Part shown: piece by piece, positions 49,684-56,311 of the stretch
Numbering within the stretch: the stretch's first letter is position 1
How the letters are laid out: each line of letters starts with the position of its first letter
NCBI RefSeq assembly: GCF_000714435.1
Contig: NZ_JJMW01000069.1
Span: 1-64,000 of the forward strand
Length of the DNA stretch: 64,000 bases
Reading direction: 5' to 3'
Origin: Exiguobacterium alkaliphilum 12/1
GTDB taxonomy: Bacteria > Bacillota > Bacilli > Exiguobacteriales > Exiguobacteriaceae
The notes under the pieces: model-generated
The model's database searches: none
What the model saw: the letters and a program-made list of their open reading frames with translations, nothing else
Told to the model about the DNA's origin: nothing
Position numbers and translations under genes: made by a program

Positions 49684-50415
49684 TTGATTACATTATGCAT
49701 CGCGGACGACAATCGAGAAATCGTCGATTTGTTGACCCGCCAACTTGAGACCGAGACCGATTTGAAGGTCGTCGGGACCGCCTTTGACGGCGAGGCGTGC
49801 TTAGACGTCGTCAAGACACACCAACCGGACGTGTTACTACTCGACATCATCATGCCGCACTTGGACGGGATTGGCGTATTAGAACGCCTGCAAGATGAAT
49901 TGGCCGACGCAAAGCCTGAGGTGATCATGCTCAGTGCGTTCGGGAAAGACGAAGTGACAAAACAAGCCGTTCAACTCGGTGCTTCTTACTTTTTAGTCAA
50001 ACCGTTCAATATTCAGCAATTGATTGCTAAGATTCGAGAATTGGCCGCCGGGTCGAATCGTGAGTTCGAGGCGATGTCGCCGGAAGAACTCGATATCTCA
50101 CTCTTACTGCAACAGCTCGGGATCTCACCGCGCATCAAAGGATTCAAATATATTCGTCAAGCTGTCATCTACGTGCGCGAGCGACAAGAGTTGCTCGGCC
50201 TCATCACGAAGGAACTTTATCCGATGGTGGCCAAAGAGCATGAGACGACGTCGTCACGCGTCGAGCGGGCGATGCGTCATGCCATCAAGACGGCATGGGA
50301 GAACGGGATGCGCGACCATGAGATGTTCAACGGGCGACCGGAACGGGAACGGAGTCCTAAAAACTCCGAGTTCATCTCTTATTTTGTGACGTACCAGTCA
50401 TTGAAGCAACAATGA
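49684..50415 (+). CDS. spo0A: Response regulator Spo0A
   Basis: A 243-residue master regulator. The receiver domain has Asp8-Asp9, phosphoacceptor Asp54 in LLLDIIMPHLDG, Ser84 and Lys106. The DNA-binding domain keeps TSSRVERAMRHAIKTAWENG, the recognition region of Spo0A. The linker is shorter than in B. subtilis (267 residues). TTG start right after the recN stop, with GAAGGGG upstream. spoIVB, normally between recN and spo0A, is absent, so the protein likely serves biofilm, competence or stationary-phase control rather than spore formation. Confidence 0.94.
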   Translation: MITLCIADDNREIVDLLTRQLETETDLKVVGTAFDGEACLDVVKTHQPDVLLLDIIMPHLDGIGVLERLQDELADAKPEVIMLSAFGKDEVTKQAVQLGASYFLVKPFNIQQLIAKIRELAAGSNREFEAMSPEELDISLLLQQLGISPRIKGFKYIRQAVIYVRERQELLGLITKELYPMVAKEHETTSSRVERAMRHAIKTAWENGMRDHEMFNGRPERERSPKNSEFISYFVTYQSLKQQ

Positions 50416-50450
50416 AAGGTCAGGGGCTCCTCTGACTTTTCTTTTATTTT
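50416..50450 (+). terminator. spo0A terminator
   Basis: Stem GTCAGGGG/CCTCTGAC (one wobble) followed by T-rich CTTTTCTTTTATTTT. Confidence 0.75.
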
Positions 50451-50454
50451 GTGA

Positions 50455-50492
50455 AAGAAAGCGCTTGCAATTCAGCGCGAGCTTGTTATAAT
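50455..50492 (+). promoter_or_regulatory. Strong promoter with overlapping cre site for the intergenic RNA
   Basis: TTGCAA (50465-50470), 16 bp spacer, TATAAT (50487-50492, perfect). AAGAAAGCGCTTGCA (50455-50469) matches the CcpA cre pattern at 14 of 15 positions and covers the -35, so glucose repression is likely if the site is used. Confidence 0.7.
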
Positions 50493-50498
50493 AAAGGT

Positions 50499-51025
50499 GT
50501 ACCAAGTTACTTGGACGAGCGTCAGATGAACGCTTTCTAATCTGTTCCGGAACAGGTTAGAGCAAGAAATCATCTCGGACCGCTATCCGTTAATAGCTCA
50601 GAGGTGGGAACGACATCTCAAATCGCCTATACGTCCCGACGAGAGGTCGCGACGTTCGCTCATTCGCGAGGTGGTTCTGAATTCGATTCGAAGCTAGGGA
50701 TCGTTTCAGGGAAAACAAATCGTTCAGTTGACCAAAAGGAGTGTTGTCAACCGTTGAACAGTTTATGGCAAGCGTTCGACTTCACGATGGATGGTTGGAC
50801 ATGACCCGATGAAAAACCGTTAGTAACTCGAATGGGTACGTTTCCGTTCACGCAAGACGGCAGTTACTAGTTTCTTTCAAACTTCTTCATTAAGAAGACC
50901 ATTGGTGAATCATGTCACATGAAGTGCAGTAAGTTATGAGAGGAGATCATCCGTAGTGATCACAATTCAATATGAATAAAAAGGTTCCGCACTTGAAATG
51001 AAGTCAAGTTAGGGAACCTTTTTTT
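50499..51025 (+). ncRNA. Candidate large structured non-coding RNA (about 525 nt)
   Basis: The 590 bp between spo0A and yqzF hold no convincing coding frame but have a strong promoter, a strong terminator and many hairpins. Paired arms include 50502-50506/50510-50514, 50518-50522/50530-50534, 50537-50547/50550-50560 (11 bp), 50601-50606/50614-50619, 50722-50732/50746-50759 (11 bp with a bulge and a 13-nt loop), 50821-50828/50862-50869 enclosing 50844-50847/50857-50860, 50882-50887/50892-50897, 50910-50914/50918-50922 and 50945-50949/50957-50961. It may be OLE RNA, which is known from this isoprenoid/recN gene neighbourhood in other Firmicutes, but the usual partner gene for the OLE-associated protein is not here and I cannot confirm the family. 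A novel RNA is the other option. Confidence 0.65.
50978..51025. terminator. Bidirectional terminator of the RNA and of yqzF
   Basis: AAAAAGGTTCC pairs with GGAACCTTTTT; inside is a second stem ACTTGA/TCAAGT. T runs exist on both strands, so it also ends the convergent yqzF. Confidence 0.9.
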
Positions 51026-51039
51026 GTGCGTCCGGATGA

Positions 51040-53054: not shown

Positions 53055-53141
53055 ATTACCTGCAATAAAATGCATGGCATGAAATAAAATACATGATGAA
53101 TGACGGTTTAAAGCGCTTTCAATATTGGAACGTAAATTGCA
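53047..53141 (+). promoter_or_regulatory. bkd operon control region: repeats, cre and sigma-54 promoter
   Basis: Sigma-54 promoter TTGGAACG-N4-TTGCA (53125-53141) with GG and GC 12 bases apart, one mismatch to TTGGCACG-N4-TTGCA. A cre-like TTTAAAGCGCTTTCA (53107-53121, one mismatch) lies directly upstream. Three direct repeats TGCAATAAAT, TGCAATAAAA and TGAAATAAAA start at 53047, 53061 and 53080 and are candidate BkdR sites; the first overlaps the bkdR stop. Confidence 0.75.
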
Positions 53142-55219: not shown

Positions 55220-56311
55220 ATGGCACGTCAACTCATCCTCGCCATCAACCCTGGGTCGACGTCGACGAAAGTCGGCTTGTTCGACGGTTCAGACGAGATT
55301 TTGACGAAAACGGTCCGACACGGAGAGGACGTCACCAGATTGTCACTTCCGGACCAACTGCCCTACCGGGAACGAGAAGTTCAGGCCGTCTTGACCGAGG
55401 CCGGCATCGCAGGCGAACAGTTGTCTGCGATCGTCGGCCGCGGCGGCTTGCTCGCGCCGATGCCGTCCGGTACGTACGAAGTCAACACCCTTATGCGGGA
55501 GGACTTGACGAGCGGGCGCTTCGGCATGCACGCCTCGAACCTAGGCGGCTTGATCGCCTATAAGCTTGGCAGCGCCTCGAACGTACCGAGCTTTATCGTC
55601 GACCCGGTCGTCGTCGATGAGCTCCAGCCCGTGGCACGTCCGACCGGGATTCCGGAAATCGAACGTCGCAGCATCTTTCACGCCTTGAACCAAAAAGCGG
55701 TCGGGAAACGATTCGCCGCAGAAAATGGAAGCGATTACAAATCGTTGAACTTGATTATCGCCCATCTCGGGGGAGGGATCACAGTCGGGGCCCACGCACG
55801 GGGACAGGTCATCGATGTGAATAACGGTCTCGACGGAGACGGACCGCTCGCGCCAGAGCGAGCCGGCTCGATTCCTGTTGGACAGGTGATAGAACTATGT
55901 TATAGTACCAGGTATAAAGAATCGGAGATGAAACAGAAAATCGTCGGTCGCGGTGGACTCTATGCGCACCTTGGCACGTATGACGCGATTGAAATCGAGG
56001 AACGCGTGGCGACGGGAGACGAACAGGCATCCCGGCTTTACGAGACGATGGCATATCGGGTCGCCCAAGAGATTGCCAAGCATGGGGCGACGCTCTTCGG
56101 GGAAGTCGATGCGATCATCCTCACGGGAGGAATCGCTTATTCCGAGTGGTTGACCGACTATATTAAACAGCGGGTCAGTTACCTCGCACCCGTTCACGTC
56201 TATCCGGGCGAAGATGAGCTGAAAGCGCTCGCTGAAGGCGCGCTTCGAGCCATCCGCCAAGAAGAAGCAGTTCGACAATATGAGGGGGATACACATGGCA
56301 CGAGAATTTGA
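55220..56311 (+). CDS. buk: Butyrate kinase
   Basis: A 363-residue ASKHA-fold kinase that makes ATP and branched fatty acids from acyl phosphates. N-terminal ILAINPGSTSTKVGLF, IAHLGGGITVGAHARGQVIDVNNGLDGDGPLAPERAG and ILTGGIAYS are typical. ATG 55220 after GGGGGAC; overlaps lpdV by 17 bp. Confidence 0.93.
   Translation: MARQLILAINPGSTSTKVGLFDGSDEILTKTVRHGEDVTRLSLPDQLPYREREVQAVLTEAGIAGEQLSAIVGRGGLLAPMPSGTYEVNTLMREDLTSGRFGMHASNLGGLIAYKLGSASNVPSFIVDPVVVDELQPVARPTGIPEIERRSIFHALNQKAVGKRFAAENGSDYKSLNLIIAHLGGGITVGAHARGQVIDVNNGLDGDGPLAPERAGSIPVGQVIELCYSTRYKESEMKQKIVGRGGLYAHLGTYDAIEIEERVATGDEQASRLYETMAYRVAQEIAKHGATLFGEVDAIILTGGIAYSEWLTDYIKQRVSYLAPVHVYPGEDELKALAEGALRAIRQEEAVRQYEGDTHGTRI

Follow-up and report, generated by a model that had tools for sequence, protein, structure and literature searches.

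A structured RNA gene downstream of spo0A

In the 64,000-nt stretch of DNA that was analysed here (the window), the genes dxs, tlyA, ahrC, recN and spo0A are followed by a gene for an RNA of about 525 nt (positions 50499-51027; the RNA gene, its helices, its promoter with the overlapping box and the two terminators described below are all on the forward strand). It occupies a gene-free stretch of 624 nt (50416-51039). If open reading frames of at least 70 amino acids are counted, this is the longest such stretch in the window, the runner-up having 275 nt, in agreement with a preliminary description that had called it the only long one. The spo0A gene is separated from the RNA gene by its own terminator, a 12-bp stem with a T-run detected in a terminator scan (50414-50441). 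The RNA promoter, TTGCAA-16-TATAAT with an extended -10 region (50465-50492), is kept in relatives; it has 10 of 12 consensus matches, a TG precedes the -10 region, and TATAAT with the RNA directly downstream is found in all but one of 38 homologues. Judging from this promoter, the transcript would start near 50499 (GUACC). At the 3' end, the sequence contains an intrinsic terminator (AAAAAGGUUCC...GGGAACCUUUUUUU, 50978-51025), also kept in relatives, with a U7 tail that ends at 51025. Both signals had been recognized before, as a near-consensus promoter with a perfect TATAAT and as a strong terminator, and both assignments hold. Past the RNA, the opposite strand carries a gene for a small membrane protein (named yqzF in the preliminary description; without NCBIfam match), and beyond it genes for a sigma-54 regulator, a phosphate butyryltransferase and a leucine-type dehydrogenase follow. 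Since spo0A has a terminator of its own, the RNA is framed by a separate promoter and terminator, and the next gene is on the opposite strand, the RNA most probably forms a separate transcription unit.

Conservation and distribution

Each of 38 Exiguobacteriaceae genomes, which represent two genera, contains one homologue of the RNA, and in every locus read in detail the homologue is located downstream of spo0A. The identity goes down to 83% and 71% within the genera and has a mean of 57% between them. Local covariance models for the 5' part (R1) and the 3' part (R2) of the RNA each recovered all 38 family members in a search of the class. Among 361 other Bacilli, R1 had no credible match under strict filters, which a strongly diverged relative could escape, and R2 had no match under strict filters in these 361 Bacilli or in 397 other Bacillota. 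A single R1 match outside the family (24 bits, in another family of the Bacilli) is situated inside a coding open reading frame and was discarded as a chance match. If 84,980 species genomes were scanned for a two-block motif, it matched 24 contigs, all of them from Exiguobacterium, and no viral contig at the sensitivity used; likewise, at the sensitivity used, the RNA was absent from the plasmid and phage collections that were searched. As judged from these sequence comparisons, the RNA is family-specific and vertically inherited. Ten viral contigs (L073-L082) carry GTTNNNNAAAAGGAGTGTTGTC, which is above a rough chance expectation; neither R1 nor R2 matches them, and they were rejected as relatives of the RNA.

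The region had been described as having only short coding frames, and this proved correct: On either strand, no open reading frame of at least 20 codons is common to more than 16 of the 35 distinct sequences. A translated frame had been named as a finding that would speak against an RNA gene, and the search for a conserved frame of this length came out empty. A frame of seven codons, GUG...UAA (50956-50979; VITIQYE in the window, VKPTLYE and similar in the sister genus), is open in 36 of 36 homologues, with a Shine-Dalgarno-like GGAG 10-11 nt upstream and the stop codon inside the A-run of the terminator. That this frame is open may be due to chance.

The RNA folds into a conserved structure

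The folding energy of the RNA has a z score of -3.4 as compared to 100 dinucleotide shuffles if the terminator is included, and z scores of -1.8 to -3.5 were obtained for six homologues after removal of the terminator. By itself, folding energy is weak evidence, and it is the comparative evidence that decides. The comparison of the two genera argues strongly for a fold that comprises about 14 helices and two or more candidate pseudoknots.

The 5' domain begins with two hairpins, P1 (50502-50514), in which CCAAG/CUUGG is replaced in a compensatory manner by CCAAA/UUUGG in the sister genus, and P2 (50518-50534), in which two compensatory pairs distinguish AGCG/CGCU from the GACG/CGUC of the sister genus; the loop of P2 is UCAGAUGAA, and 144 of 144 cells of the stem are paired. 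The sequence AGAUGA (50524-50529) might pair with UCAUCU (50570-50575) to form a pseudoknot, PK1. Since it is invariant in 36 of 36 sequences, covariation is not possible, and PK1 is therefore regarded as a candidate only. P3 (50542-50555) has a palindromic CCGG(A) loop, a candidate kissing loop, with CCGGA present in 36 of 36 sequences and variable stem letters. P4 (50582-50597; GCUAU/AUAGC) exhibits exchanges between UA, CG and GC pairs, and in P5 (50601-50619; GAGGUG/CAUCUC, in the sister genus AGAAUG/CAUUCU) four of the six pairs are changed on both sides with all cells paired. The P6 domain (50621-50676) is composed of an outer helix (50621-50627/50670-50676), P6a (50632-50654) and P6b (50657-50668); it covaries within the genus of the window, and the sister genus has a corresponding helix made of other letters. 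The hairpin P7 (50678-50708) has a loop, GAAGCUAGG, that is conserved in 36 of 36 sequences, and both-side changes in seven of eight pairs in the window's genus and in four of eleven in the sister genus. In the group that includes E. sibiricum, a 10-base tandem repeat, AAGCAAGACC, is inserted between P7 and P8 in 11 to 19 copies (L024:1145-1335, L023:1165-1334, L020:1825-1934 and L028:1227-1335) and lengthens the RNA to 668-748 nt; the window's genus does not have this repeat.

In the 3' part, P8 (50727-50751; GUUGAC/GUCAAC, with GUUGAC or GUUAAC in 16 of 19 cases) carries the loop CAAAAGGAGUGUU and the 15-nt motif AAAAGGAGUGUUGUC (50734-50748), which is found in 36 of 36 sequences. The loop at 50733-50745, said before to expose AAAAGGAG, is indeed present and is part of this motif. 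The 5' strand of P9, AUGGAUGG (50787-50794), pairs with UCAUCCGU at 50947-50954. Here, 288 of 288 cells are paired, the changes are one-sided and neutral for pairing, and the cross-genus control gave 0.996. P10 is formed by 50798-50811 and 50900-50916; its letters differ by genus, and it covaries within the sister genus (CUUCA/UGAAG vs CUCCA/UGGAG). P11 (50822-50868; AGUAACU/AGUUACU, in the sister genus CAGAU/AUCUG) is paired in 213 of 213 cells. The invariant UUCUUUC (50872-50878; 36 of 36) may form a second pseudoknot with GAGAGGA (50938-50944): 252 of 252 cells of UUCUUUC/GARAGGA are paired, and as the two arms are nearly invariant, this pairing is a candidate as well. P12 (50882-50897) is CUUCUU-CAUU-AAGAAG in the window and CCUCUU/AAGAGG in the sister genus, a compensatory change from U-A to C-G, and P13 (50945-50961; GAUCA/UGAUC) shows an exchange of A-U for U-A. 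P9 and P13 have UCA in common; since they overlap by these three bases, at least one of them must be an alternative, and a five-pair pseudoknot or a switch is possible. A further helix, P14, is weak, with a C-A mismatch in one of the groups, and we do not propose it. Nine motifs, several of them in loops, are shared by all 36 sequences that were extracted: AGAUGA, UCAUCUC, CCGGA, RAAGCWAGG, AAAAGGAGUGUUGUC, UUCUUUC, CUUCAUUAAGA, GARAGGRG and UCAUCCGYA.

Between the genera, both-side changes affect 9 of 19 nested pairs of the 5' domain (P1, P2, P4 and P5), and 99.3% of its cells are paired (the six PK1 pairs included) as compared to 28-43% if the partner strand is slid. In the P6-P7 domain, the stem letters differ largely between the genera and the helices correspond. 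Covariation was seen for 9 of 25 pairs in the window's genus (45 both-side cells vs 15.5 in shuffled controls) and, independently, for 12 of 30 pairs in the sister genus (27 vs 9.4). The shuffles for these helix-level counts leave relatedness in place, so that the counts within each genus together with the sliding control provide the main answer. Single pairs were also tested for covariation against a tree-based null. As the tree is dominated by one split between genera, this test lacked power, and it gave zero significant pairs; support for the fold therefore rests on the helix-level counts. Thus, the paired arms are kept in related genomes by compensatory changes within and between both genera, and the preliminary description was right that the RNA folds. 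Several of the hairpins drawn there from the single sequence have been replaced by consensus helices of the two genera, and the pseudoknot candidates have been added. Taken together, it is nearly certain that the product of the locus is a structured RNA.

Comparison with known RNA classes

Of 4227 Rfam models, only those for two tRNAs matched the window. For the RNA and its homologues there was no credible match at E<10, ROOL and GOLLD included; low-scoring matches to RT-14, HOTAIRM1, ctRNA and others were below threshold and implausible. RNase P RNA was rejected as well, the class B RNase P RNA being encoded elsewhere in the genome (311 bits). The earlier suggestion of another known RNA class is thus not supported, as no Rfam family matches. 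In contrast, conservation, covariation and the missing Rfam match all agree with the claim that this is a large structured RNA gene that might be new. Our literature searches, mostly outside subscription journals, returned no paper on non-coding RNAs or OLE of Exiguobacterium and none that describes this RNA.

A divergent OLE RNA had been considered for this locus because of size and neighbourhood. The proposed search with the OLE model RF01071 gave no match in the RNA (nine homologous sequences had no hit at E<10) or in its own genome, and none in the Exiguobacteriaceae covered by the class search. As the own-genome search was empty for the controls too, the search of the class served as positive control, and there 68 of the 300 genomes from Bacilli gave more than 450 bits with the model. 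Full-sensitivity nhmmer searches of 20 OLE RNAs against the Exiguobacterium RNA, in both directions, found no match at E<10, and searches of 20 OLE loci with R1 and R2 were empty. The OLE-associated protein OapA had no match in two genomes of the window's genus and one of the sister genus, and in another sister-genus genome only a 22% match to a frame of 430 residues was obtained, whereas five OLE-bearing control genomes matched at 40-49% identity. The remark that the gene for this protein is missing was therefore correct. In the two OLE loci that were read, OLE directly follows ispA, whereas the Exiguobacterium RNA follows spo0A.

A predicted CcpA-binding site overlaps the promoter

A predicted CcpA-binding (cre) box, AGAAAGCGCTTGCA (50456-50469), overlaps the -35 region of the RNA promoter and agrees in 13 of 14 positions with the cre consensus TGWAARCGYTWNCW. 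The box is identical in 18 promoters of the window's genus that were compared, one of them with a changed edge base, and the spacer behind it varies freely. In about half of the sister-genus promoters, a cre-like site is present upstream, about 13 bases further away, and the promoter of E. flavidum has a perfect cre-like box, TGTAAGCGCTAACA. The genome contains a ccpA gene (519 bits). Given the position of the box on the -35 region, repression of the RNA by CcpA would be the expected effect. In the group of the sibiricum, antarcticum and undae type, the box is absent from the RNA promoter, and carbon control would thus not be universal. Near the position of the cre box, cre-less species (L020-L025 and L028-L030) carry a partly palindromic sequence containing AATATTC, in some of them TGAATATTCA, that is possibly the site of another regulator. 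In the window as a whole, there are 9 cre-like matches vs 1.5 expected, with two sites counted on both strands. Further cre-like boxes are located at 53108-53121, upstream of the likely start of the phosphate butyryltransferase gene, and at 56220-56233.

Discussion

We consider it probable that this gene gives rise to a non-coding RNA of about 525 nt that is specific to the family, is transcribed from its own sigma-A-type promoter, ends at its own terminator, acts in trans either as a folded RNA or within a ribonucleoprotein and, in the window's genus, is repressed through the CcpA box. Its own promoter, the lack of coding capacity, the kept fold, the invariant motifs and the vertical inheritance all fit such a trans-acting RNA, which might be a scaffold or a regulator. 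The CCGG(A) loop is kept while its stem varies, which would suit a homodimer formed through this palindromic loop. In the window's genus, the CcpA box over the -35 region should repress the RNA if preferred sugars are present. A more far-reaching idea is that the RNA represents an undescribed class of large ornate RNAs, distinct from OLE, ROOL and GOLLD, that works in all Exiguobacterium as a dimeric or ribonucleoprotein machine under carbon catabolite control and perhaps takes the role that OLE or another ribonucleoprotein has in other Bacilli; this we regard as a tentative proposal.

A trans-acting regulatory RNA that binds to the leaders of mRNAs or to the 16S rRNA 3' end with the invariant AAAAGGAG and its CU-rich segments, the fold serving to present these segments and to protect the RNA, seems rather unlikely to us. 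It would account for the presence of AAAAGGAGUGUUGUC, UUCUUUC and GARAGGRG in 36 of 36 sequences, and a cre-controlled promoter would suit a metabolic regulator. AAAAGGAG and GARAGGAG each show complementarity to the 3' end of 16S rRNA over 7-8 bases, and in three of four species inspected GARAGGAG.UCAUCC matches the complement of this end at 12-13 of 15 bases. However, UUCUUUC can pair with GARAGGA in all 36 sequences, and P9 or P13 makes use of UCAUCC, so that the conservation is explained without a target; for GARAGGAG, the pairing with UUCUUUC is at least as good an explanation as the complementarity to 16S rRNA. Moreover, a regulator of this type would not need the elaborate structure of the remaining RNA. 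The constant position beside spo0A, the terminator at the 3' end, and the overlapping P9 and P13 and the seven-codon frame close to it would also agree with a cis-acting element, either a part of the spo0A 3' untranslated region or a leader or attenuator of the downstream gene. Yet spo0A and the RNA are separated by a terminator, the RNA is preceded by a promoter of its own, and the gene beyond the RNA terminator is on the other strand. With terminators on both sides and an opposite-strand gene as the sole downstream neighbour, there is no gene on which a cis-element would act, and we hold this reading to be very improbable; the RNA is thus unlikely to be a cis-element of a neighbouring gene.

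Still less can be said for an mRNA of a very small protein or for a CsrA-titrating RNA like CsrB/CsrC, both of which we judge to be highly improbable. For the former, the seven-codon GTG frame with its Shine-Dalgarno-like GGAG is open in all homologues, but an open frame of 24 nt is a weak argument, GGAG is far from the start codon, the stop codon falls in the A-run of the terminator, and 450 nt of conserved structure precede the frame. As for the latter, the RNA resembles CsrB/CsrC in standing alone and in having GGA in some conserved loops, and the genome has a csrA gene. Unlike these RNAs, it has no clear enrichment of GGA (11-14 in homologues of 517-553 nt vs 9-11 expected from composition) and no array of GGA hairpins, and covariation favours a conserved, elaborate fold. 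In the assembly of the window, csrA occurs twice, with the same coordinates on two contigs (C25 and C70, 8186-8341; L059 and L060); the assembly is rated 7.6% contaminated, and the two are probably duplicated contigs. The least probable of all readings is a divergent OLE RNA in a new location whose OapA partner has been lost. It could rely on the similar size and on a broadly similar neighbourhood (dxs, tlyA, ahrC, recN, spo0A), but RF01071 has no match in the family members covered, the profile searches are empty both ways, OapA is absent, and the location differs; at the level of sequence, this reading is already contradicted.

The trans-acting RNA that we favour is nevertheless similar to OLE in kind: Both are large (OLE about 600 nt), structured, chromosomal non-coding RNAs of Bacillota with many invariant bases and with isoprenoid and recN-type genes in the neighbourhood. 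OLE RNA associates with the membrane and forms dimers. The Exiguobacterium RNA differs from it in its helices and motifs, without similarity of sequence or model in either direction, in its own promoter with the CcpA box, in its restriction to one family, and in the absence of the OapA gene. ROOL and GOLLD are likewise large ornate bacterial RNAs of unknown function. They are homo-oligomers, and cryo-EM has revealed kissing loops as part of their stabilisation (PMC12286853), a feature that might be paralleled by the CCGG loop, whereas the RNA studied here has no Rfam match to them and, at the sensitivity used, did not turn up in collections of phages, plasmids and viral contigs. The raiA-motif RNA (ModT) is a conserved, structured stand-alone non-coding RNA of Bacillota with a complex fold (PMC11706538); it occurs in more than 2,500 species as compared to one family, and the Exiguobacterium RNA has no match to it in Rfam.

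The Exiguobacterium RNA is a new RNA family that by its kind can be placed in the loose assembly of large, structured non-coding RNAs from bacteria. To our knowledge, there are few structured non-coding RNAs of more than 500 nt, and most of those known lack a function. The RNA adds an independent class with clear limits, covariation at the level of helices and, with the cre box, a likely regulatory signal. As it is present in a single copy in the readily cultured E. sibiricum, E. aurantiacum and E. antarcticum, its deletion, structure probing and pull-down of putative partners are feasible.
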